64,000 nt of DNA, from NCBI RefSeq assembly GCF_900109575.1, contig NZ_FOAF01000006.1, positions 124,001 through 188,000 of the forward strand. Reading direction: 5' to 3'. Source of the stretch: Olivibacter domesticus. GTDB lineage: Bacteria; Bacteroidota; Bacteroidia; Sphingobacteriales; Sphingobacteriaceae. Both the position numbers and the translations under genes were made by a program. Each line of letters starts with the position of its first letter. Within the stretch, counting starts at the first letter, position 1. The notes beneath the pieces were generated by a model, which did not search any database, was not told the DNA's origin, and saw nothing but the letters and a program-made list of their open reading frames with translations. Below, in pieces: positions 38,990 to 61,051 of this stretch.

Positions 38990-40681
38990 TTAAAAACGAT
39001 ACATTGCGCCCAGCTGTAGATGCCAATTCGTTTTATTAAAGGTTTCGTAACGCCAGAAGTTTTCTAGCTCTGGTTTTTCTTCGTATTGGTACTGATAATT
39101 ATTAGCATGGATATATTGTATTTTCCCGGTAAAAAGAAAATTCTTATAATCATAGACTCCATTGGCAGCCATACCAAAATCGACCCAGTTAGCACGCATG
39201 TCTTTTGGCGTGCTGTAAAAGAAATCGTTATTGTGCACCATTCGCTCAAACTGAACACCTACTTGTTTCATCCCCCTTAATATACTCACATTTAAGGCTT
39301 GTACATCATTCCCTAATCCCATTCCTGCTCCCATGATCTGCCCTAAATTGGTATAACCATCACGCACCTGGTAGTGGCGATACCATGTACCAGCCGGCCG
39401 TATATCTGCAGAACGCCCTGGAGACATTTGGGTCATCTCGAAGTTAATTTGCAAGAGATCTTTGTGATAATTTTGCAAATCAATTAATTTTCGTAGTCCA
39501 AAGGTATAAGCCCTCGAATGGCTCGACATGACTGTTAAATCGCGGCCGTTCCATGGATGGTCATTTCTTCCGTATTCGCCATAAATTTCAAACTGGGCTT
39601 CTGGGATCACCCAACGCAAAAAGAAAGAAACTAATTGATCTTGTCCTTTGGCATCGGCTGTACTCCCACTATCGATTCCACCACTAAAGCTAGCTTTTGA
39701 ACCCGATTGGAAAAAGGGTATATAGTCTCCCAATTTATTCCCCATATCCTCGCTATAGACGGTAAAAGCACGCGTCAATCCCAAAGTTAAGCCCGGTACC
39801 CATTTAGGTTGATAGCTCAAAACAATACCTGAAAAATAACGCCAATCATCTGGCTTTGGATTATAATATTGGCTAAACTGATCAGGGGTAAGCGGTTTAG
39901 GCGAAAAACCAGAAGTTTTTAATCTGCCTCCCACCATTTGTCCTTCAAAGGAACCAATCGGTGTACGGATGGGCCTCGTAGTGTTAATAGTAGCATGCAG
40001 AAAACCTGGGGCACTGTTACTCATCAATAAGGAGTTACGCATCCCTGGCCCCCACCATAAATTCTCGGTAGAAATACCAATAGATATAGGATGAAAATTC
40101 AAACGCACACTGCTCTGTCCGGGAAGAAATTTAGTATAGCTTCCTGTACCAAAGCGCTCAGGCGCGTCAATCTGATTACCGATACGATTCCACCAAAGTC
40201 GCCAATCTGACTCATACCTCCCTTCATACCCCTGATAATCCCGATTCTGTGCAAAGACAAACTCCGGCCTAAGCTGAATACTCAGCCATTTATATTCTGC
40301 ATACACCCCAGCACTCAGCATAGTTTGATAACCTACTGCGGGAATCATACCCCCATCATTCCAACCATAGGGGAAAGCACTTGCCAGTTGGTTTTGCCAA
40401 ACAGCAGGCATGACTTGCATAAAACCTTTGCCATTGGGGAACTGATAAATACTGTTATCGGTATAGGAGCTATCTGGATTAAAAATATTACGCTGCTTTA
40501 GTACTTGATTAGTAAGGGGCCTCACAGAAAAGGATACCGTAGAATCAAGCTTGCCAAGAAGCTGTTGCCGCCTATAGTAATCTTCTAGTACTGGTGTACC
40601 CACGGGAAGAACCTGAGATCTTAGGGAAATACTAGACCCGAGTAAAAGAATGATAAGAGATAGTCTTATGTATTGTCTCAT
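38990..40681 (-). CDS. wzi: Wzi-family capsule assembly outer-membrane protein (1)
   Basis: 563 aa. A signal peptide (LSLIILLLGSSISLRSQ) leads to a predicted outer-membrane beta-barrel (Caps_assemb_Wzi family), ending in an aromatic C-terminal strand WHLQLGAMYRF as barrel proteins do. Alternating strands such as FEGQMVGGRLKTSGF and FEIYGEYGRNDHPWNGRDL are visible, and the family stretch VRLNFHPISIGISTENLWWG. In E. coli K30 Wzi anchors capsule to the cell surface. It is a paralogue of the gene at 41052 and lies between the two polysaccharide loci, so it could serve either. A truncated extra copy of its 3' end lies 320 bp downstream. Confidence 0.9.
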   Translation of the reverse strand: MRQYIRLSLIILLLGSSISLRSQVLPVGTPVLEDYYRRQQLLGKLDSTVSFSVRPLTNQVLKQRNIFNPDSSYTDNSIYQFPNGKGFMQVMPAVWQNQLASAFPYGWNDGGMIPAVGYQTMLSAGVYAEYKWLSIQLRPEFVFAQNRDYQGYEGRYESDWRLWWNRIGNQIDAPERFGTGSYTKFLPGQSSVRLNFHPISIGISTENLWWGPGMRNSLLMSNSAPGFLHATINTTRPIRTPIGSFEGQMVGGRLKTSGFSPKPLTPDQFSQYYNPKPDDWRYFSGIVLSYQPKWVPGLTLGLTRAFTVYSEDMGNKLGDYIPFFQSGSKASFSGGIDSGSTADAKGQDQLVSFFLRWVIPEAQFEIYGEYGRNDHPWNGRDLTVMSSHSRAYTFGLRKLIDLQNYHKDLLQINFEMTQMSPGRSADIRPAGTWYRHYQVRDGYTNLGQIMGAGMGLGNDVQALNVSILRGMKQVGVQFERMVHNNDFFYSTPKDMRANWVDFGMAANGVYDYKNFLFTGKIQYIHANNYQYQYEEKPELENFWRYETFNKTNWHLQLGAMYRF

Positions 40682-40708
40682 TTTTGTACTTAATTTTTTT
40701 ATTTACTT

Positions 40709-40822
40709 TTCTTTTTTCCGCTAAAGAAAAGTAACAAAAGAAAACTCTCAGCTTAAAATCTTCTTTGAAAGTTCCTGCCTTTACTTAGCTTCTGCTACCC
40801 GAATATTTTGAGGCTGAAATCA
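40709..40822. repeat. Dispersed repeat C, copy 3 (degenerate)
   Basis: Resembles the copy at 3799-3925: TTTTTTCCGC, then AAAATCTTCTTT, then CTTTACTTAGCTTCTGCTA, CCGAATATTTTGAGGC. It is 37 kb from the other copies, so this is a dispersed family rather than a local duplication. Non-coding. Confidence 0.55.
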
Positions 40823-40875
40823 TTGTTTATGATTGTTATCCCTTTCAGACCTTTTATGCCTCTAGCTATCATTTT

Positions 40876-40963
40876 TTCGCTTCCTCACAGCATATCCCCA
40901 GCAACAGTTTATTTTTTTAACGCTCATCCGCCAGTAGTCGGACAAGTTCTTATGAGGCCGGCC
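40876..40963. repeat. Dispersed repeat B, copy 2
   Basis: Shares TTCGCTTCCTCACAG at the left and the core TTAACGCTCATCCGCCAG, TAGTCGGACAAG, TTCTTATGAGGCCGG with 38290-38378; the part between is diverged. Non-coding. Confidence 0.7.
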
Positions 40964-41051
40964 CTATCCCACGTCACTAAAGCCCCGTTACCTTTCTACC
41001 TCCGTACTTATGTCTTATGTCTTGATACTTATATCTTGCTACTTTAACCCA

Positions 41052-42788
41052 CTAAAACCGATACATCACACCTAACTGTGCTTGAAAATTAAATTTATCT
41101 ACATGCCCAAATTTCCAAAAGTCGCTGTTTACGGGATTTGGCTTCTCTACTATTTCATACTGATAGTTGAATGCATGAATGAAATGCATACGGGCACTGA
41201 ACAAAAAGTGTTTATAATCCCACTGCCCAATTAATGCGGCTGATAAATCCACCCAATTGCGCCGATAGTCTTGTTGATCGGCTACCGCCTCGTAAAGAAA
41301 GTCGGCATCATGTTCCTGTCTTTCTAATTGTATGCCTAGTTGTTTCATCCCCCTTAACCAAGAAACATTTAGACTTTGCAAGCTACCTCCTGGCCCTATA
41401 CCCGCTCCTAATACCTGACCTAAATAGGTATAACCATCTCGCACAATGCTATGGCCATACCAGCTTGGACTACTGCGAATTGCAGATGTACGGGTACTAC
41501 CTACATCTGTAAGCTCTATATTAACATTTAGTAGATCTTCTCCTTTTAAAGGAACTAATTTACGGAAACCTAATACATAACCTCTGGAATGCTCTAATTC
41601 CAACATACGGTCTCTGCTGTTAAAAGGTGGGTCATTCCGCCCATATTCTACGTAAAACTCTGCTTTACCTTTCGGCATCACCCAACGGGCAAAAAATGAC
41701 GCGTATCGATCGCGTTTACGCAGCGTCTCTCGGTCAATGGCATTGGGTTCGCCGGGGTTTGCTGGTGGCCGCCCTTCAACAGTGGAAGAGGATTTCGACC
41801 CGGGGCCTAAAAAGGGCAAATAGTCGTTTAGCTTAGAGCCCATATCATCGCTGTATACCACGAAGCTCTGCGAAAAACCTAAAGATAAGCCTGGTACCCA
41901 TTTGGGCTGATAGGAGAAGATAGCGCCCGACAGATAACGCCAATCATCTGGCTTGGGCACATAAAATTCATCGTAATGATCTGGATTACCTAATGGCGTT
42001 GGTGTATACCCCGAAGCCTTGAGTTTGCCGGCAATTAACTGCCCTTCAAAATATCCGATGTTTGTTTTAACGGGTTTGGTGGTGTTTAATGTCAAATGTG
42101 GAAAGCCTGGCGCAGTATTACTCATCAACAAGGAGTTGCGCATTCCCGGCCCCCACCAGATATTCTCGGTAGACAGACCGAAGGATACGGGATCAAAGGT
42201 GATACGAACACTGCTTTGCCCTGCCAGTAACTTGGTATAGGTGCCATCTCCAAAACGCTCGGGCATGTCTATATTATTATGGAAAGAATACCAAAGATCC
42301 CATGCGGGACGGGTAGTGCCGCCGTAACCTGCATATGCTTTATTTTGTGCAATTACCAATTCCGGACGGAGCTGAATGCTGAAAAATTTATAACGTGCAT
42401 ATACGCCTGCACTGAAAAGGGTTTGGTAGCCTACATTGGGAATCATCGCGCCATCATTCCACCCGGAGGGATAGGCGCTGGTATATTGATTTTCCCAAAT
42501 TACAGGTAACAACTGTACACGGCTTTCACCCGGTACATCCCACATGATACTTTTATCTACGAAAGAAGAGCTATCGGGATCGTACACATCTTGCACTTGT
42601 AAAGCCTGTACCGTAAGTGGGCGTATATTAAAAGATATGGTAGAATCTAGTTTACCCAACAATTGCAAACGTCTATAATAATCTTCTAGTACGGGGGTTC
42701 CTACTGGAAGCGTTTGCGCATGCAGGCTGGTATAAACGCTACTGAAAGATAAAAGAATAAGGCCAAATAACTTGGTAAAAATCTTCAT
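41052..42788 (-). CDS. wzi: Wzi-family capsule assembly outer-membrane protein (2)
   Basis: 578 aa. A signal peptide (LILLSFSSVYTSLHAQ) precedes the same beta-barrel family as the gene at 38990, with shared TLPVGTPVLEDYYRR at the mature N-terminus, FGLSTENIWWGPGMRNSLLM and the aromatic C-terminal strand FQAQLGVMYRF. It is slightly longer through an insertion around residues 340-360 (STVEGRPPANPGEPNAIDRE). It should sit in the outer membrane and bind exported polysaccharide. Two diverged Wzi proteins next to two polysaccharide loci suggest one for each polymer, which is inference. Confidence 0.9.
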   Translation of the reverse strand: MKIFTKLFGLILLSFSSVYTSLHAQTLPVGTPVLEDYYRRLQLLGKLDSTISFNIRPLTVQALQVQDVYDPDSSSFVDKSIMWDVPGESRVQLLPVIWENQYTSAYPSGWNDGAMIPNVGYQTLFSAGVYARYKFFSIQLRPELVIAQNKAYAGYGGTTRPAWDLWYSFHNNIDMPERFGDGTYTKLLAGQSSVRITFDPVSFGLSTENIWWGPGMRNSLLMSNTAPGFPHLTLNTTKPVKTNIGYFEGQLIAGKLKASGYTPTPLGNPDHYDEFYVPKPDDWRYLSGAIFSYQPKWVPGLSLGFSQSFVVYSDDMGSKLNDYLPFLGPGSKSSSTVEGRPPANPGEPNAIDRETLRKRDRYASFFARWVMPKGKAEFYVEYGRNDPPFNSRDRMLELEHSRGYVLGFRKLVPLKGEDLLNVNIELTDVGSTRTSAIRSSPSWYGHSIVRDGYTYLGQVLGAGIGPGGSLQSLNVSWLRGMKQLGIQLERQEHDADFLYEAVADQQDYRRNWVDLSAALIGQWDYKHFLFSARMHFIHAFNYQYEIVEKPNPVNSDFWKFGHVDKFNFQAQLGVMYRF

Positions 42789-52847: not shown

Positions 52848-54284
52848 TTATTTTTTTACAATTCTATTGAACACGTATTTCAACTCGTCTAACTCCTTTA
52901 CTTTCAATAAAAAAGCCGTCAACAGATAAGCAATTGCAGCAACGGAAACGGCAACAATGAGCTGTATTAATGGAGAGGAGAATAAACGCATGCTCAGGTA
53001 GCTCAGGAATGCCATAACCATGGTACAAATAATAATGCTAAAGCAATCTTTTATCTGTTTAATGGCGCCATAAGCATATAAGCGACCAGGCATATAGGTA
53101 TTGATAAAATAGCTTATAAAAGTATTGATGAAACTACCGATCACCACGGCTTTCGTGCCCATAGGCAACGTAATGACCATGGTCAATACAATCAGCGGCA
53201 ACTTACATAAATCGGTCTTTAGAAAAAGATCAGACCGCCCTACAGCATTTAACAAATTGAGGTTTAAGGCACTGATGGGCATAAATAATTTCGCCATGCA
53301 TAGCCATTGTAACAAAACAACGGCGGGTAACCATTTCTCGGTAAGGAAAAGTCGCACGAATGGTTCTGATACGACAGCAAAAAGTGTCATGGCCGGGAAA
53401 ACGATAAAAGCGGTCATAGACAGTAATCTGCTATAAACAGATACTAGCTTTTCACGATCGTCCTGAATGGAGGTGAGTAATGGAAAGGTAACATTTGTGA
53501 TGATGGCATTAACCGTTCCTGCAGACATCTCTGCTAGCGTGTTTGCACGTGTATAATATCCCAACGCTTTTGATTGATACCACTTGCCTATCATGATGGT
53601 ATAAATATTATTTAAGACAGTTGAGTATAAGCCCGCCAGCAATATTTTTGAGCCATATCCGAACATCTCGCGAAAAGCTTGTACAGAGAATTCCCAGCTG
53701 GGCCGCCACTTCATGCTAAACCACATCAATATAGTGGTTGCAGCGGCAAGAGATAATGTTTGTGCTGCCAATGCCCATACCCCGTAGCCATGATAAGCCA
53801 TATATAAACTTATCGCTCCACTAATAACGATGGCTATTACATTTATCTTCGCAGGGGTTTGAAAATCGATTTCGATCATTAACTTAGCACGATGAACCAC
53901 CACTAATGCCGCTACAATAAACTGTAAACTAAGCACTCGCAGGAGCAGTATGAGTGCTGGCGTATCATAAAATTCGGCAATCGCGGGGGCAGCGAAATAT
54001 AATATTAAGTATATCAGTACACTAACTGCTAAATTGAAATAAAATACCGTGCTAAAATCTGTCTGTGTACAGTTTTTACGCTGCACCAAAGCCCTACTAA
54101 ACCCGCTCTCTATAAATAAGCTAGATATGGCAATAAATACCGTTAGCATACCTATTAAGCCGTAGGCCTCTGGACTTACTAAACGTGCAATAATAATGCT
54201 AATGATGAAACTAATGCCTCTAACTAATAAACTCTCCAACGAATTCCACGCAAGACCATTAAATGCTTTTGCTTTTAGCGACAT
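52848..54284 (-). CDS. wzx: Wzx/WzxC-type flippase (MOP superfamily)
   Basis: 478 aa with about twelve to fourteen membrane helices. The N-terminus AKAFNGLAWNSLESLLVRGI and IARLVSPEAYGLIGMLTVFI is typical of the lipopolysaccharide/colanic-acid WzxC branch, as is LVQRKNCTQTDFSTVFYFNL. It should export the lipid-linked repeat unit of locus 2, including any phospho-modification made by the genes just upstream. It starts 2 bp after the opine dehydrogenase gene. It is a different branch from the flippase at 24187. Confidence 0.9.
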   Translation of the reverse strand: MSLKAKAFNGLAWNSLESLLVRGISFIISIIIARLVSPEAYGLIGMLTVFIAISSLFIESGFSRALVQRKNCTQTDFSTVFYFNLAVSVLIYLILYFAAPAIAEFYDTPALILLLRVLSLQFIVAALVVVHRAKLMIEIDFQTPAKINVIAIVISGAISLYMAYHGYGVWALAAQTLSLAAATTILMWFSMKWRPSWEFSVQAFREMFGYGSKILLAGLYSTVLNNIYTIMIGKWYQSKALGYYTRANTLAEMSAGTVNAIITNVTFPLLTSIQDDREKLVSVYSRLLSMTAFIVFPAMTLFAVVSEPFVRLFLTEKWLPAVVLLQWLCMAKLFMPISALNLNLLNAVGRSDLFLKTDLCKLPLIVLTMVITLPMGTKAVVIGSFINTFISYFINTYMPGRLYAYGAIKQIKDCFSIIICTMVMAFLSYLSMRLFSSPLIQLIVAVSVAAIAYLLTAFLLKVKELDELKYVFNRIVKK

Positions 54285-54286
54285 AA

Positions 54287-55417
54287 TTAATCGATGGTAA
54301 TATTCTCCTGCTTTATTACGGTGTCTAATTCTGATGAACTTATTGCGCCACTCTGCTTTATATCTTTACCAACTAAGCGGCCGTTGACGAGGTACTCCTT
54401 CCCCATCATACGTTGACCCCATTCAATAATTTCATCAATTTGAGGAGTTGCTACATGAAGATGCTTCGCAATTGATTTAACAATAATTATCCCGTATGGA
54501 AAATCTTCCTGAAAATACCTGTTGTTAAAATTAGGCACATACCCGCCTAATTGAGGATACATGGAAACTTTTATGCCCTTAAAAGCACTGATAGACCTTA
54601 TTTTAGCAGTTAAAGATTGTGCGTCATAGCTCTCATAATACGTTAAAAGTGACGGGATCTTTTCTATTTTTGTAGGGAATTCTCTTAACACCTGCTGAAA
54701 TTCTTCATCGCAGGCAATAAGTGTTGCAGAACTATGATCGGTCCATTCTTCATAAAAAGAATATTCCTCTTCGTAAATTTTCCCTGGCTGATAATCTCTA
54801 AAAAGACTATATAGGCGCGCGGGGTGAAGCAAAGGATTGCTATTGGTTAATGTTGCCTCCAAAATATGATTTAACTTGATAATCGGGAGGTCAAACATCT
54901 CTTGTAACACAGAAACAATTTTTGGCTCTGCATGCACATTGGAAAAGGCCACCTTTAGCTCCTTTTTATACCCTAATAGTTGAGCCGATTTTCCATATTG
55001 AGCCACTCGCGCAATAAAAGGGACGCGCTGAAAACCAAACAATCCAATATGCTTGTCTAAAATTTTTTGCGCCATTATTAAGAATCCTGTACTGGAAACG
55101 ACCGAACCTACGACTGTGCCAATGTTGATATGATCTTTTATTTTTTCTAATGTTTCCTGGATAAGGAAACCGGGAAGACAAAATAAAATAAATTGGCTTT
55201 GAGGAATAACGTCTGCTGGATTATCAGAAATAACTGCTAATTTTCCTTTATATTCTTTTTGAAAATCATCTGTTACGCGAATAGTATGGCGCCAAGACGC
55301 TGGTTTGCTTGTTAACAGGTTTACGGTGTAGCCTTTGCTCGCAAGAACTCCAGCTATCACATGCCCCAAGCCTCCCCCTCCGCAAATACATACTTTTAGT
55401 CGCTGTGTTGGTTTCAT
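54287..55417 (-). CDS. Octopine/nopaline (opine) dehydrogenase family protein
   Basis: 376 aa. The N-terminal NAD(P)-binding Rossmann fold has VCICGGGGLGHVIAGVLASK and FILFCLPGFLIQETLEKI. The C-terminal octopine-dehydrogenase domain (about 180-330) has LTNSNPLLHPARLYSL, containing the conserved His-Pro of the active site, and FYEEWTDHSSATLIACDEE. Family enzymes join an amine and an alpha-keto acid by reductive N-alkylation. The start codon overlaps the stop of the nucleotidyltransferase-PLP fusion (ATGA), so the two are made together. I infer that it adds a 1-carboxyethyl-type group to an amine made by the fusion protein. Such an enzyme is unexpected in a polysaccharide locus. Confidence 0.82.
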   Translation of the reverse strand: MKPTQRLKVCICGGGGLGHVIAGVLASKGYTVNLLTSKPASWRHTIRVTDDFQKEYKGKLAVISDNPADVIPQSQFILFCLPGFLIQETLEKIKDHINIGTVVGSVVSSTGFLIMAQKILDKHIGLFGFQRVPFIARVAQYGKSAQLLGYKKELKVAFSNVHAEPKIVSVLQEMFDLPIIKLNHILEATLTNSNPLLHPARLYSLFRDYQPGKIYEEEYSFYEEWTDHSSATLIACDEEFQQVLREFPTKIEKIPSLLTYYESYDAQSLTAKIRSISAFKGIKVSMYPQLGGYVPNFNNRYFQEDFPYGIIIVKSIAKHLHVATPQIDEIIEWGQRMMGKEYLVNGRLVGKDIKQSGAISSSELDTVIKQENITID

Positions 55418-57216
55418 AAGCTTAGTTCCCTTAAGGCCTTAATTAATAAATTATTATCTTCTTTATTGCGGATCGCTATCCGAACAAAGTTTTGTCCGTT
55501 AAAGCCTGCTTTTGTACTACAATCTTTAATTAAGATGTTTTTAAGCAGCAGCTTTTCCGTTAACGCTAAAGACGTGAATTCTTTCACTTCACATAAAAAA
55601 TAATTCGCCGACGACGGTATAACACGGAGAAATTTAATCGTTTTCAATTTATTATGAAACTTATCACGTATCGTTAAAAATTCCTTACAAGCGCGATAAT
55701 AATCACTTTCATATTTCCCAAATATTTGGAGGTAAAACTCAGCAAAAGAATTGATATTCCAAATAGCAATAGCTGATTGTATACTTTGTACAACTTGTTG
55801 ATCTGCACTTGCCATTACACCTAAACGCAAGCCAGGAACACCGTATGACTTGGAAATACTTTTTACGACAACTAGATTAGGATACTTCTTTAAGACTTCA
55901 TCTGAAAGCATGCTGAAATATCCTGCTGCAAAATCTATAAAGGATTCGTCATACAATAATTTAATCTTACGTTGAAGCGTCCACTGTAATAGTTCTTCAA
56001 CTTCTTCCTTCCTTAAGAAATTACCAGAGGGGTTATCGGGATTGATTAGTAATAACTGCTTGATGGGATGTTCTTCAAAATAGCTAATAAGATCTTTTGC
56101 GCTGTAGCTGAAATCTGCATTAGCCGGATAATATGCAACTATATTTTCCTTTTTTAATCTGTTTGGATATTCTTCGAATGTTGGAAATACAACACCCGTT
56201 TTTACATTGTGATGGCTTAGATACGCCGAAATAAGTTCTGCTGCACCATTGCCAATGGTAATATAATCTGGGTTAACAGAAAAGTACTTACCGGCCAATG
56301 TTCGGTTAACACCAGCCCCTGAAGGATATTCTGTTAACAGGGTATCCATATTTGCCTTTAGCTCGTCTTTTAACCGTTTAGGTGGAAATAGTGGATTTAC
56401 GAGATAACAGAAATCTTTCAATTTCGGAAAGCGCCAATATCCGCCATATCTCTTTTGATAGAGAGAAAGTTTATCTACCTCTGCTGCAAAAAGCGTCTCC
56501 GCATTATTAAGGTCTTGAATATCGTCTATTTCATACCATTTCTCGCCATGTAAGGGAAGCGCTTTTAGCTCGACCTTATCGATCATCATGACAATACGCA
56601 ATACCTGTTCGTAATATTCATTATCACCTAAGGCTTTACTGTAAGCTTTTAGAAAAGGCACGTAATAGCGTTTGGAAAATCGCCTGCTAAATTTATAAAT
56701 ATTTACTGTCTTGTAATAGAGGTCTTTATCATTATAGTTAAACGCTTTTTTTGGAATAAAACTTTGAATACTATTTTCCTTATCAAGCATTACAACGGTA
56801 CCATCCATCCAGCTTTCGTATTTGGCTACTGCCGCTAGCGTTGGATACGGATTTTTAATAATTTCATCTATAATGGCGTCTTCAAAGATAAGATCTGATT
56901 CTATTAATAATGTTTCTTCCTTTAAAAGATAGTCTTTTGCTAAAAAAAGAGAATAGATATTATTGGTTTTATTATAAACAGGATTATCAATATATTCGAT
57001 AGGAGTACCTTGATAATCTGTTCCAAGATACTCTTGGAGTTTGCGTCCTTCATAACCAGTTACAATCACCACACGGCTTAGTTTATGATTACTTAATTGA
57101 GTCAATAATCGATCTATTAGCGTGACCCCATTTACTTTTACCATGCACTTGGTATTATGCCGAGTAAGCTCTCCTAATCTTTTTCCCATACCGGCGGCTA
57201 ATATAATTGCTTGCAT
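55414..57216 (-). CDS. Fused nucleotidyltransferase / PLP aminotransferase-fold enzyme
   Basis: 600 aa, two domains. Residues about 1-245 are a LicC/PntC-like nucleotidyltransferase (AIILAAGMGKRLGELT; VKVNGVTLIDRLLTQL; metal-site LLIESDLIF at about 104-112; WYEIDDIQDLNNAE). Residues about 255-600 are a fold-type I PLP domain close to CobD/HisC, with INPDNPSGNF (391-400), Asp423 in LYDESFIDF, the PLP lysine Lys456 in SISKSYGVPGLRLG, and Arg579. CobD-like enzymes decarboxylate phospho-amino acids, so the domain could make an amino-alkyl phosphate that the other domain activates with CTP. PntC-AEP transaminase fusions are the nearest precedent I know. Coupled to the opine dehydrogenase. Confidence 0.8.
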   Translation of the reverse strand: MQAIILAAGMGKRLGELTRHNTKCMVKVNGVTLIDRLLTQLSNHKLSRVVIVTGYEGRKLQEYLGTDYQGTPIEYIDNPVYNKTNNIYSLFLAKDYLLKEETLLIESDLIFEDAIIDEIIKNPYPTLAAVAKYESWMDGTVVMLDKENSIQSFIPKKAFNYNDKDLYYKTVNIYKFSRRFSKRYYVPFLKAYSKALGDNEYYEQVLRIVMMIDKVELKALPLHGEKWYEIDDIQDLNNAETLFAAEVDKLSLYQKRYGGYWRFPKLKDFCYLVNPLFPPKRLKDELKANMDTLLTEYPSGAGVNRTLAGKYFSVNPDYITIGNGAAELISAYLSHHNVKTGVVFPTFEEYPNRLKKENIVAYYPANADFSYSAKDLISYFEEHPIKQLLLINPDNPSGNFLRKEEVEELLQWTLQRKIKLLYDESFIDFAAGYFSMLSDEVLKKYPNLVVVKSISKSYGVPGLRLGVMASADQQVVQSIQSAIAIWNINSFAEFYLQIFGKYESDYYRACKEFLTIRDKFHNKLKTIKFLRVIPSSANYFLCEVKEFTSLALTEKLLLKNILIKDCSTKAGFNGQNFVRIAIRNKEDNNLLIKALRELSL

Positions 57217-57260
57217 ACTTATGTTGGTTTGTTGTTTAGTTCATAAGATGTTTTAATGAA

Positions 57261-58574
57261 CTATTTTACTGTTTTTATTAATTCATGAAAAATATTCTCT
57301 GTGGCAGTGCCATTATTAGGTGGATTTAAATATTCTTTGAAAAAAGTCTTTCGGGTCTGAAATAGCGGATCTTCTCCTGCCAAAAGCTGAAGGATCGATG
57401 CTCTTAATTCCTCTTTATTATTAACTTTATAATAGTTTCCAAGACATAATTCGCCAAGTTTATTCAGTTTTTTGGGAACGTGCGGACTTTTTAATGTGAA
57501 AATACCCGGTTTTTGCAAGTACAAATATTCCATAATAAATGAAATACTATCGAATACCATAAAATCTGAGGTATAGAAAAGATCTGTATATTCTCCCAGC
57601 TCTAATTGGCCATTAGGAAGTTCTTCCCACATGGTATAATAATTATCTGTACGCTCCTTCCCCCACCCTTCCAGATCATATAATTTTGCTTTCAATATAG
57701 GATGAGGCTTAAATGCTAGTTGAATTTTCCCTTCAAGTTCAGTCGCGATTTTCAACATGAATTCGTGATAAAACAGGAAAGTTGAAAAATCCAATTCTTC
57801 TCTATTATCGATGGTGTGGTGTGGTGCCCAAATAACTCGTTTAACTTGCGCATCTTTTATCTTCCAAACATCGGTTGGTTGATAATTCTTATTAAGAAAT
57901 ACGTCAAGGCTTGGATAACCCGACACCCTTGTATTTATTCCTTTTATTCTCGAAAATGTTTTGGAAAATTCCAGATTAATGGGCGTTTCTACAAAGAACC
58001 GCCATAATAAATTATGAAAAAGTTGATCGTACTGACTTTTCTGCAAGCTACACACAGCACATGAATAGGGAACGTAACAGGTTAGCACGTCCGAAAAGTT
58101 AGTAATGTAATAATCATCTTTTGTTACGTACCTATAGGGATTTGTAAAAAAGACAATATCGGGTTTAAACTCCTGCTTAATATCTAGCCAAGAATCGTTT
58201 TTAGCATTATAAGTGTTCACTACATGATATCCTTTTTCCTGCAGTTTTTTACTTGCAATATTCATTTCCTCCAGCATTTTCTCCTGGCCATAAATTAAAT
58301 ATGGGCAGATAAAAATTACGGGCTCAAAGCGTTCGCTTGCAACAAGTAATTTATATAGTTCATCAAATTTCCAAACTGCACTAAAAACAACAAAAAATGC
58401 CACCTTTATTTTTGCTTTCCCTGCAATTTTTTCTTCTAATAGGCGGTTCTGTTCCTGCTGGCTTTTAATTAACTTTAGCTCTTTGTTACCACCTAAAAAA
58501 AGACGAAAAGCGTATACCTGATCTCTTACAGCTAAAGGGATTATTTTTTTATATAGTGCTTTAAGGTTTCTCAA
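57261..58574 (-). CDS. TagB/TagF-like CDP-polyol phosphotransferase
   Basis: 437 aa from a TTG start; an in-frame stop lies upstream and no ATG is available. The C-terminal GT-B-like domain shows the family features VIWAPHHTIDN, IQLAFKPHPILK and the serine region DLFYTSDFMVFDSISFIMEY. The N-terminal half has KVAFFVVFSAVWKFDELYKL and DIVFFTNPY. CDP-glycerol glycerophosphotransferases move an alcohol phosphate from a CDP donor to an acceptor. Here it lies directly upstream of the predicted CDP-donor-making fusion protein, so I infer that it transfers the modified phosphate to the lipid-linked sugar. It has no membrane segment. Confidence 0.75.
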   Translation of the reverse strand: MRNLKALYKKIIPLAVRDQVYAFRLFLGGNKELKLIKSQQEQNRLLEEKIAGKAKIKVAFFVVFSAVWKFDELYKLLVASERFEPVIFICPYLIYGQEKMLEEMNIASKKLQEKGYHVVNTYNAKNDSWLDIKQEFKPDIVFFTNPYRYVTKDDYYITNFSDVLTCYVPYSCAVCSLQKSQYDQLFHNLLWRFFVETPINLEFSKTFSRIKGINTRVSGYPSLDVFLNKNYQPTDVWKIKDAQVKRVIWAPHHTIDNREELDFSTFLFYHEFMLKIATELEGKIQLAFKPHPILKAKLYDLEGWGKERTDNYYTMWEELPNGQLELGEYTDLFYTSDFMVFDSISFIMEYLYLQKPGIFTLKSPHVPKKLNKLGELCLGNYYKVNNKEELRASILQLLAGEDPLFQTRKTFFKEYLNPPNNGTATENIFHELIKTVK

Positions 58575-58586
58575 TATTACTATCTT

Positions 58587-59684
58587 TTAAAACTTATTAA
58601 TCAATGCGATTACTTCATGAACTTCTTCTTCCCTCAGTACCTGACTAATTGGTAAGCTCAAAACCTCTTCATGAATTTTTTCAGAAATGGGGAAGCTTAA
58701 ATTGCCCCATTCTTTATAAGCTTCCTGCTTATGTGGAGGAATAGGATAATGAATAAGGCTTTGTATATGATGATTTTGCAAATAAGTTTGCAGCTCATCT
58801 CTTTGCGCACATCTTATTACAAATAAATGCCAAACATGCGCCATAGGATTTTTCACCCGCGGCAGCACAATCTTTGGGTTGTTTATTTCGCTTAAATAGC
58901 GATTAGCAACTGCCCTCCTTGAAGCGGTTTCTTCATCAAGATGTTTTAGCTTTATGGCTAGCATTGCCGCATTAATTTCATCTAGGCGGCTATTGGTTCC
59001 TTTATAGAGGTTTTTGTATTTTTCATGGGAACCATAATTTAACAAGGCCCTAATAACTTGCGCTAAATTGGCATCACTAGTAGTTACAGCACCGGCATCT
59101 GCCAAAGCACCCAAATTTTTACCTGGATAAAAACTAAACGCTGCCGCATCGCCCCAACCGCCGGCCTTTTTTCCGTCTAATGCTGCACCATGTGCCTGTG
59201 CTGCATCTTCAATAAGCTTCAAATTATGCCTCTTAGAAAGCACTGTAATGGCAGACATATCTGCTAGTTGCCCATATAGATGTACTACCAGGATAGCTTT
59301 TGTTTTTGACGTGATCTTTTCTTCTATTAACGCAGGATCTATATTATAATCCTCTAAAATTGGCTCTATTAATACAGGTGTCAGGTTATTCGCAGAAATA
59401 GCTAATATACTAGCAATAAATGTGTTAGAAGGGACTAAAATCTCATCTCCGTCTTGAAAAATGCCCATCTCTTTATATGCTCTGATAATAAGAGAGAGCG
59501 CGTCTAAACCATTTGCAACACCTATCGCCTCTTTCGTGCCACAATAAGCAGCAAATTGTTGTTCAAACTGCTGAAGCTCTTTTCCCATTAAAAACCATCC
59601 GGAATCCAACACCCGGGTAAAAGCATCGATAAACTCTTCGCGGTGCTGTTGGTTAATGGCATGTAAATCTAAAAATTTTATCAT
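58587..59684 (-). CDS. fdtB: PLP sugar aminotransferase (FdtB/QdtB type)
   Basis: 365 aa from the ATG at 59682-59684, which overlaps the acyltransferase stop (ATGA). DegT/DnrJ/EryC1/StrS family: [73 protein letters not shown] and the PLP lysine Lys189 in [20 protein letters not shown]. With the FdtA-type cupins it should make dTDP-3-amino-3,6-dideoxyhexose. The chain is of normal length and complete. Galacto or gluco product depends on the cupins. Confidence 0.88.
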
Positions 59685-60232
59685 CACTTCTTTATTTCAT
59701 TGTCTTGCCATGCGTATTGGTCTCCCGTAAGTGGATCAACCAATTGCAGATTCAATAGTATGGCATCTTTTGTAATATATCCTTTATGTCTGGCAGGATT
59801 GCCATACCAAACCGTGTGGGGAGGAATATCTTTTGTTACCACAGAACCAGCGCCAATGAAGGCGTATTCGCCAATTGTTACGCCCGCAACAACGGTACTA
59901 TTAGCGCCTATAGAAGCTCCACGCTTTACAAGGGTACGCTCAAATTTACCCGGATAAACTTTTGATCGAGGGACATAATCATTGGTAAAGGTGGCATTTG
60001 GCCCTATAAACACATAATCTTCCAAGGTTACGCCATCCCAGATCTGCACGCCAGATTTCACTGTTACCTGATCACCTATCACCACATCATTTTCCACGAA
60101 ACAGTTACAGTTGATGTTACATCCTATGCCAATTTTTGCATCCTTTAAAATAACGGTAAACTGCCATACATGAGTGCCTGCTCCAATATGTACTGTCTGT
60201 ACATCTGCCAACTGATGAATAATAGCTTCCAT
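59684..60232 (-). CDS. fdtC: dTDP-3-amino-sugar N-acetyltransferase (FdtC/QdtC type)
   Basis: 182 aa left-handed beta-helix acyltransferase. Features are [80 protein letters not shown] and [16 protein letters not shown]. The N-terminal GTHVWQF and central FTND are typical of 3-amino-sugar acetyltransferases such as QdtC and of WbpD. It should acetylate the amino group placed by the overlapping aminotransferase gene, giving Fuc3NAc or Qui3NAc. Complete and in operon. Confidence 0.85.
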
Positions 60233-60237
60233 TAGTA

Positions 60238-60651
60238 TTATTTTTTAGCGTATTCTAAAAATTCATTATAATCACGAATATAATCTAGTTCATCATAACT
60301 TTCCGATGCCAGTACCAATAAAACCGCGCCTGATGAAAAATTAACTAAATCACGCCAAATGCCCGGCACCACTAAAAGGCCATAGTTTGGCCTGTTTAAA
60401 TGAACGGTTTTCTTTACCGTGCCATCGTCTAAAATAACGTCAAAGCTACCGCTCACAGCTACAATCAACTGCTGGAGTTTATAGTGCGCATGACCTCCCC
60501 GCGTCTCTCCACCGGGCACATCGTAAAGATAATAGAGGCGCTTTACCGAAAAAGGTAATTCTAGCTCGTTGTTAACCGCTGTTATATTTCCAGCCCGATT
60601 GTGTACTTTAGGTAATGTAATTACAGGACAATTATATACGGACGCCATCAT
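60238..60651 (-). CDS. fdtA: FdtA/QdtA-type dTDP-4-keto-6-deoxyhexose ketoisomerase, cupin 1
   Basis: 137 aa cupin (WxcM-like family). The core is RLYYLYDVPGGETRGGHAHY with the two catalytic histidines (residues 54 and 56) intact, then SGSFDVILDDG, NRPNYGLLVVPGIWRDLVNF and the C-terminal YDELDYIRDYNEFLEY. It should move the keto group from C4 to C3. The start is at one of two adjacent ATGs (60651 or 60648). It overlaps the related cupin gene by 20 nt. Galacto versus gluco outcome cannot be read from sequence. Confidence 0.88.
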   Translation of the reverse strand: MMASVYNCPVITLPKVHNRAGNITAVNNELELPFSVKRLYYLYDVPGGETRGGHAHYKLQQLIVAVSGSFDVILDDGTVKKTVHLNRPNYGLLVVPGIWRDLVNFSSGAVLLVLASESYDELDYIRDYNEFLEYAKK

Positions 60652-61051
60652 TTTTTATTTTACAGAATTCATCAAAATCTCTTATATAATCATCTACATT
60701 AAATGACGTGGAAGCAGCAACTAGCGCGACCGCATTTGTGGAAAAGTTTTGCATGCTGCGCCATATCATTTTTGGAACGTAAAGTGCCTTGTATGATCGA
60801 TTAAGTGAGTAAACTTGCTCGCTTTTGCCGTCATTTAAAACGATATCAAAGCTGCCAGACAAGGCAATAATTATTTCTTCTTGTTGTTTAAACGCATGTG
60901 CACCGCGAATTTCACCACCTGGAACATCATAAATCCAATAAGTGCGGGCGATCTCAAATGGAATGTGATTAGACCCCTCCAAAAAAGAAAGATTGCCGCG
61001 ATCATCAAAAATTTTAGGTAATTCGATGAGATAGGATTGATTAAGCTTCAT
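60632..61051 (-). CDS. FdtA-family cupin 2, altered catalytic motif
   Basis: 139 aa, paralogue of the gene at 60238 with the same fold and ends (YWIYDVPGGEIRGAHAF; SGSFDIVLNDG; PKMIWRSMQNFS; VDDYIRDFDEFCK). The first catalytic His (52) is kept, but the second position of the HAH motif is Phe54. It may be an isomerase with another stereochemistry, a partner in a heterodimer, or a non-catalytic subunit. The tandem pair is a recurrent arrangement, as far as I know, in Bacteroidota loci. It is the first sugar gene after the initiating transferase. Confidence 0.82.
   Translation of the reverse strand: MKLNQSYLIELPKIFDDRGNLSFLEGSNHIPFEIARTYWIYDVPGGEIRGAHAFKQQEEIIIALSGSFDIVLNDGKSEQVYSLNRSYKALYVPKMIWRSMQNFSTNAVALVAASTSFNVDDYIRDFDEFCKIKNDGVRI

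Follow-up and report, generated by a model that had tools for sequence, protein, structure and literature searches.

How might a bacterium convert the phosphoethanolamine of a surface glycan into an acidic group? The question is raised by 64,000 nucleotides of Olivibacter domesticus DNA (GCF_900109575.1, contig NZ_FOAF01000006.1, positions 124,001 to 188,000; this whole stretch is here called the window). In it, three adjacent genes encode a TagF-like transferase, a fusion of a nucleotidyltransferase (NTase) with a pyridoxal phosphate (PLP) enzyme, and a protein of the octopine/nopaline dehydrogenase family. The fusion protein is here named FUS and the dehydrogenase ODH; L-numbers designate homologous loci in other genomes. 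It is very probable that FUS and ODH cooperate on an aminoalkyl phosphate with which a glycan is decorated. The particular route that we read from the sequences is a probable one: serine phosphate would yield phosphoethanolamine, which would be activated with cytidine diphosphate (CDP), N-carboxyethylated with pyruvate and transferred to a glycan. The genes are:

57261-58574, minus strand: TagF-like CDP-alcohol phosphotransferase, 437 residues, PF04464.
55414-57216, minus strand: FUS, with NTP_transf_3/NTP_transferase at residues 1-134 and Aminotran_1_2 at residues 288-595; the LicC/PntC-like NTase domain spans about 1-245, the serine-phosphate-decarboxylase-like PLP domain about 258-598.
54287-55417, minus strand: ODH, PF02317 Octopine_DH, E 1.8e-33.

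The TagF-like gene starts with TTG. The ATGA at 55414-55417 is common to the stop of FUS and the start of ODH.

The strongest hint at a common function comes from other genomes. A set of 84,980 species genomes was scanned with an alignment of FUS, and the best 80 loci were kept, with 55-61% identity across the full fusion; they are the nearest relatives of FUS, and counts among them are not independent samples. ODH lies within two genes of FUS in 44 of these 80 loci: at the next position in 39, fused to the C-terminus of FUS in three, and two genes upstream (position -2) in two. The same 4-bp overlap recurs in at least 16 of the 39. Of the 395 genomes of the class, no more than 3 have homologues of ODH (E<=1e-10), the window genome among them, and because of this rarity the linkage to FUS is not due to chance. 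In L041, L043 and L058, NTase, PLP enzyme and ODH form one polypeptide of about 945 residues, for which Pfam gives the order NTase, aminotransferase fold, Octopine_DH in L041. ODH is fused to LicD in L069, L078 and L097, which places it functionally near the transfer step. Differing flanks, rearranged gene order and two types of fusion speak for genes that are tied by function and not simply inherited together. A LicD or TagF-like transferase is present in 64 of the 80 loci. Co-occurrence in other genomes had been set as a test in a preliminary description of this DNA, and the idea passes it, gene fusions included; the conserved core is FUS plus ODH, with LicD serving as transferase more often than TagF. 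In another genome of the class, an ODH that does not adjoin FUS is fused to an acid-phosphatase-like domain (PF12689; L114, 907-2682).

A second line of evidence is the replacement of ODH. In 22 loci, the place beside FUS is taken by a protein of the ornithine-cyclodeaminase (OCD) family (PF02423, OCD_Mu_crystall). The two proteins are not homologous and no locus out of 80 carries both, a mutual exclusion with a hypergeometric P of 1.4e-10 if the loci are assumed to be independent. The FUS tree requires at least 11 switches between them, including those within the sister pairs L058/L062 and L095/L106. The OCD superfamily comprises a sponge tauropine dehydrogenase, which joins pyruvate to taurine (PMC3840593, PMC4113996), and taurine is the 2-aminoethyl sulfonate analogue of 2-aminoethyl phosphate. 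That two unrelated families with opine activity swap places therefore strongly supports opine chemistry on an aminoethyl phosphate.

That ODH belongs to the opine dehydrogenase family, as had been proposed from the start, is borne out by its PF02317 match, its fold and an intact catalytic triad. Its best relatives in the PDB are 3c7a and 3iqd, the octopine dehydrogenase of Pecten (Foldseek E 1e-30 for 3iqd). His198, Arg300 and Asp305 correspond to His212, Arg324 and Asp329 of octopine dehydrogenase and are found in all 45 FUS-associated ODHs; by alignment, they are the catalytic His-Asp dyad and the NADH-sensing Arg. In octopine dehydrogenase, Glu142 holds the guanidinium group of arginine (PMC2924402). 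This position is Gln in 44 of the 45 associated ODHs, and the position of Trp278 is a gap in all of them. With the guanidinium-binding residues replaced or missing, the amine substrate is probably not arginine. Instead, the associated proteins all have Arg131, next to where Glu142 would be, as well as Arg201 and Lys272; among seven comparison ODHs, Lys272 occurs in none and Arg131 in one. From their positions, the three basic residues may line a phosphate-binding pocket. Octopine dehydrogenase yields products of the D-type (R).

The PLP domain of FUS had been read as a CobD-like decarboxylase, and it indeed clusters with a serine-phosphate decarboxylase, away from the HisC aminotransferases. 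CobD and HisC are its best NCBIfam models. Its score with the CobD equivalog TIGR01140, 169 bits, is below the cut-off of 290.55, so the domain is not CobD itself. The best PDB match, 6oux, is identical, in all 342 residues that align, to a protein from Sulfurospirillum that bears the annotation serine-O-phosphate decarboxylase of norcobamide biosynthesis and whose gene adjoins cbiB and cobU. In the tree, the FUS domain and the Sulfurospirillum enzyme form a clade with support 97/98; HisC forms a separate one (99/99). Lys456, which binds PLP, and Asp423, both of the fold-type I core, are kept in 83 of 83 FUS sequences. Equally invariant are Ser299, Ser425, Gly459 and Asn487, which are common to the serine-phosphate decarboxylase and, as a set, not to CobD or HisC. 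The prediction of a serine-phosphate decarboxylase rather than a HisC-type aminotransferase is thus supported. A precedent in glycan synthesis is Cj1436 of the Campylobacter capsule, which decarboxylates serine phosphate (PMC12409886). Stand-alone relatives of the PLP domain in the same class adjoin HAD-phosphatase-like genes, matching the pair Cj1436/Cj1435; such proteins were seen in polysaccharide clusters (L002, L003, L016, L017, L019, L021). By analogy to the Campylobacter capsule, these pairs probably supply ethanolamine.

For the NTase domain, the best solved matches are LicC (1jyk, E 2.3e-11) and PntC (6pd1, E 1.2e-9), as the original LicC/PntC-like assignment would have it. Glu106, Glu229 and Asp231, the substrate and metal residues, are present in 83 of 83 FUS sequences. 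Glu106 aligns with Glu104 of PntC, which contacts the primary amine of the substrate, the corresponding residue of LicC being Asp (PMC6697681). The conservation of this Glu, as in PntC, favours an aminoethyl substrate over choline. The domain is supported as a predicted cytidylyltransferase, which would act on cytidine triphosphate (CTP) together with an aminoalkyl phosphate. Among genomes of the class, stand-alone homologues of it adjoin a membrane protein resembling CDP-alcohol phosphatidyltransferases (L004, L005, L018, L020, L024).

The transferase is less clear. The claim of a TagF-like enzyme stands in so far as the protein passes the Pfam cut-off for Glyphos_transf (PF04464, 28.2 bits against 22.1) and a profile of seven homologues reaches TarL (8va1, E 2.9e-6); the Pfam match covers only part of the profile. 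Motifs invariant among the homologues are WAPH, KPHP and SD..D. A structure model with a confidence (pLDDT) of only 65 matches GT-B-like folds, with TagF 3l7k at rank 31 (TM 0.45). In most relatives the role is filled by LicD, and mf1 of the LicD family moves phosphoethanolamine from CDP-ethanolamine (PMC11982090).

From these assignments the following pathway can be drawn. The PLP domain of FUS would decarboxylate L-serine phosphate to ethanolamine phosphate, which the NTase domain would couple to CTP to form CDP-ethanolamine. Before or after this activation, ODH would use NAD(P)H to condense the free amine with an alpha-keto acid, likeliest pyruvate, to N-(1-carboxyethyl)ethanolamine phosphate. 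The TagF-like enzyme, or LicD in most relatives, would then take over the N-carboxyethyl-aminoethyl phosphate from the CDP donor and link it as a phosphodiester to one of the sugars in the repeat unit, and the decorated unit would be exported by the flippase Wzx. An opine-phosphate pathway of this kind had been the central idea of the preliminary description. It is backed by linkage, fusions and domain assignments; ethanolamine phosphate as the substrate, pyruvate as the keto acid, the order of steps, the stereochemistry and the acceptor sugar are what we infer on top of these. Sequence analysis contributes the linkage and the fusions, the exclusive swap of ODH and OCD, the catalytic residues, the decarboxylase clade and the absence of phosphoenolpyruvate (PEP) mutase. 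Several points weigh against the pathway as drawn: the 80 loci are close relatives rather than independent cases, the assignment of TagF is weak, the keto acid could instead be 2-oxoglutarate or glyoxylate, and CobD-like enzymes can use threonine phosphate.

The last two points amount to the same logic with another small substrate, threonine phosphate giving (R)-1-aminopropan-2-ol phosphate, or another keto acid, and hence to a different N-carboxyalkyl aminoalkyl phosphate. Members of the ODH family accept several keto acids, and CobD, a threonine-phosphate decarboxylase, is the best NCBIfam model, albeit far under its cut-off. The tree and the four diagnostic residues Ser299, Ser425, Gly459 and Asn487, however, side with serine phosphate, and the substituent known from a glycan is the one built of ethanolamine and pyruvate (PMC9630907); we consider another substrate unlikely. 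A phosphonate version is conceivable too: phosphonoalanine would be decarboxylated to 2-aminoethylphosphonate, activated with cytidine monophosphate, N-carboxyethylated and transferred. The NTase does match PntC, PEP mutase is encoded no more than three genes away from FUS in L038 and L070 and, in the genome of L042, at another place, and a split Bradyrhizobium form of FUS adjoins aepX. Yet a PF13714 search of the window genome found no PEP mutase, the best match being PrpB-like, situated beside citrate synthase and devoid of the motif EDKxxxxxNS, and the enzyme is also absent from 22 of 25 FUS genomes tested. A phosphate is therefore expected. With PEP mutase absent, the phosphonate pathway was rejected for the window genome, and we rate the chance of this version as very small. 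L038 (10921-12222) and L070 (3705-7982) contain PEP mutase-cytidylyltransferase fusions and PPD-like genes near FUS and ODH, L070 also a Fe-alcohol dehydrogenase. These sets probably add a phosphonate to that glycan as its second substituent; the combination in L070 suggests a separate hydroxyethylphosphonate group, which again speaks against a phosphonate product of FUS.

One may also doubt the concerted action of the enzymes. The PLP domain has the Aminotran_1_2 fold and resembles HisC; it might be an aminotransferase for a sugar or a histidinol-like substrate, and ODH might independently synthesise an opine, alanopine or N-carboxyethyl-lysine for example, to be amide-linked to a sugar. Opines of this type are known in Providencia O-antigens (PMC10609480). 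But the tree excludes HisC, ODH directly adjoins FUS in 39 of the 80 loci, and NTase-PLP-ODH and ODH-LicD occur as single polypeptides. By tree and gene fusions, an aminotransferase acting on a sugar was rejected as a candidate, and the whole scenario has but the slimmest probability. Finally, ODH and the OCD protein might have the amine of (CDP-)ethanolamine phosphate as their target and yet not be opine synthases; they could, for instance, reduce some other imine or run oxidatively. Each family consists of NAD(P)-dependent ketimine enzymes and is diverse in its members; both, however, include enzymes that condense pyruvate with amines, the catalytic triad of ODH is intact, and oxidation would serve no obvious end in an operon for decoration. 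This, too, is highly improbable.

The surroundings of the module fit a role in polysaccharide synthesis. Its neighbours are:

52848-54284, minus strand: Wzx-type flippase, PF13440, E 8.8e-94.
58587-61051, minus strand: DegT aminotransferase (by Pfam), acetyltransferase and two FdtA/WxcM-like genes (these three by reading of the open frames only).

Only 2 bp separate the stop of ODH from the start of Wzx. The layout described earlier, with three genes in the same direction, the ATGA overlap and Wzx after 2 bp, was confirmed in coordinates and Pfam domains. The directly adjoining Wzx puts the module within a polysaccharide export operon, and with the flippase, glycosyltransferases and a DegT aminotransferase around it, the setting is therefore the synthesis of an O-antigen or exopolysaccharide. 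The DegT, acetyltransferase and FdtA/WxcM-like genes would fit a repeat unit that contains a 3-amino-3,6-dideoxyhexose. Farther away in the window (38990-42788), two adjacent, similar genes for proteins of 563 and 578 residues look as if a gene for an outer-membrane protein of the capsule-assembly type had been duplicated in tandem.

ODH and the OCD protein are not the only candidate amine modifiers. A formyltransferase adjoins FUS in L015 and L025, a methyltransferase in L026. L025 (7023-12869) belongs to Fusobacterium vincentii and contains LicD, a multi-membrane (Wzy-like) protein, the formyltransferase, FUS and a downstream gene of 349 residues; this set predicts N-formyl-ethanolamine phosphate in a glycan of that species. 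In the inspected loci that have neither ODH nor OCD, only LicD, glycosyltransferases, an alditol-type reductase-cytidylyltransferase or unrelated genes were found beside FUS, so plain phosphoethanolamine is likely there. We are slightly inclined to see in FUS the constant core of a widespread, modular tailoring of phosphoethanolamine on surface glycans. Modifiers of the amine (ODH, OCD proteins as convergent opine synthases, formyltransferase, methyltransferase) and transferases (LicD, TagF, CDP-alcohol phosphatidyltransferase) would be exchangeable, and the resulting head groups, whether anionic, capped or quaternary, would differ from one related strain to the next. The system would be found mainly in gut Bacteroidota, also in Fibrobacter, Akkermansia, Clostridia and Fusobacteria.

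On plasmids of Rahnella and Priestia, FUS adjoins a CDP-alcohol phosphatidyltransferase (L027, 7980-10458; L028, 7992-10446), which suggests that CDP-ethanolamine is made de novo there and goes into a product resembling a phospholipid; in Priestia, a lantibiotic cluster lies a few kb from FUS. A plasmid of Rhizobium sp. 007 (L120, NZ_CP064190.1, 2762-8844) carries in a row a phosphocholine-cytidylyltransferase-like gene, a PLP enzyme, a CDP-alcohol phosphatidyltransferase, a second PLP enzyme, ODH and a methyltransferase, which may amount to the same chemistry applied to a lipid. The ODH of this row lacks the set Arg131/Arg201/Lys272.

If the pathway is correct, it is the first genetic route described for a decoration known so far only chemically, and it explains how zwitterionic phosphoethanolamine becomes an anionic group on bacterial glycans. 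The FUS core recurs with exchangeable N-modifiers in many rumen and gut Bacteroidota; a single set of assays would thus decode a family of unseen surface decorations, which may matter in immune recognition and phage binding. The repeated swap of two unrelated dehydrogenase families further predicts convergent opine synthase activity for uncharacterised proteins of the ornithine-cyclodeaminase family. The chemistry and each type of enzyme were already known. New are the gene set, the fusions and the exchangeable N-modifier slot, none of which was found described in the searchable literature (most subscription papers lay outside its scope); the same search bore out the earlier impression that no such gene set had been reported.

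How does the module compare with known systems? The predicted product equals N-[(R)-1-carboxyethyl]ethanolamine phosphate (R-Cet-EtnP), which is on record for an O-polysaccharide of Proteus mirabilis (PMC9630907); the Proteus substituent mentioned in the preliminary description is thereby documented. It differs in being known chemically, without a gene set in the literature searched; the main text of PMC5560731, consulted for the Proteus O14 cluster, does not name a gene for it. An ODH of Proteus mirabilis was discarded as an O-antigen gene, since it lies beside a TonB-type receptor, a cysteine-synthase-like gene and an MFS transporter, in what resembles an opine-metallophore cluster. In strain H63 (L121, 4213-9011) this cluster also has a decarboxylase-like gene; the record lists its 4.08 Mb replicon as a plasmid.

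With the Lic phosphocholine pathway, the module would share the LicC-like activation of an aminoalcohol phosphate with CTP and the transfer to a glycan by LicD (in most relatives) or a TagF-like enzyme. The Lic pathway, however, takes up choline, whereas the module would make its aminoalcohol phosphate de novo by the fused decarboxylase and add an N-carboxyalkyl step; also, Glu106 of FUS resembles PntC, whose substrate has a primary amine, rather than LicC. LicA kinase and the choline transporter LicB were not seen beside the module in the window; no genome-wide search for them was made. The PntC-AEPT protein Tde1415 of Treponema denticola is likewise a fusion of an NTase with a PLP enzyme. 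Its PLP part is a class V transaminase and depends on PEP mutase, in contrast to the decarboxylase-like CobD/HisC fold of FUS and the missing mutase. SMUL_1544 of Sulfurospirillum, with which the PLP domain groups, and Cj1436, which serves the Campylobacter capsule, are serine-phosphate decarboxylases, the activity predicted for FUS, yet they stand alone and work for norcobamide or a sugar amide, while in FUS the domain is fused to an NTase for activation with CDP. The octopine dehydrogenase of Pecten and the tauropine dehydrogenases, finally, share fold and catalytic His, Arg and Asp with ODH, and taurine is the sulfonate counterpart of the proposed phosphate substrate. They serve anaerobic metabolism; ODH, with its guanidinium-binding residues replaced and new invariant basic residues in place, would serve the decoration of a glycan.

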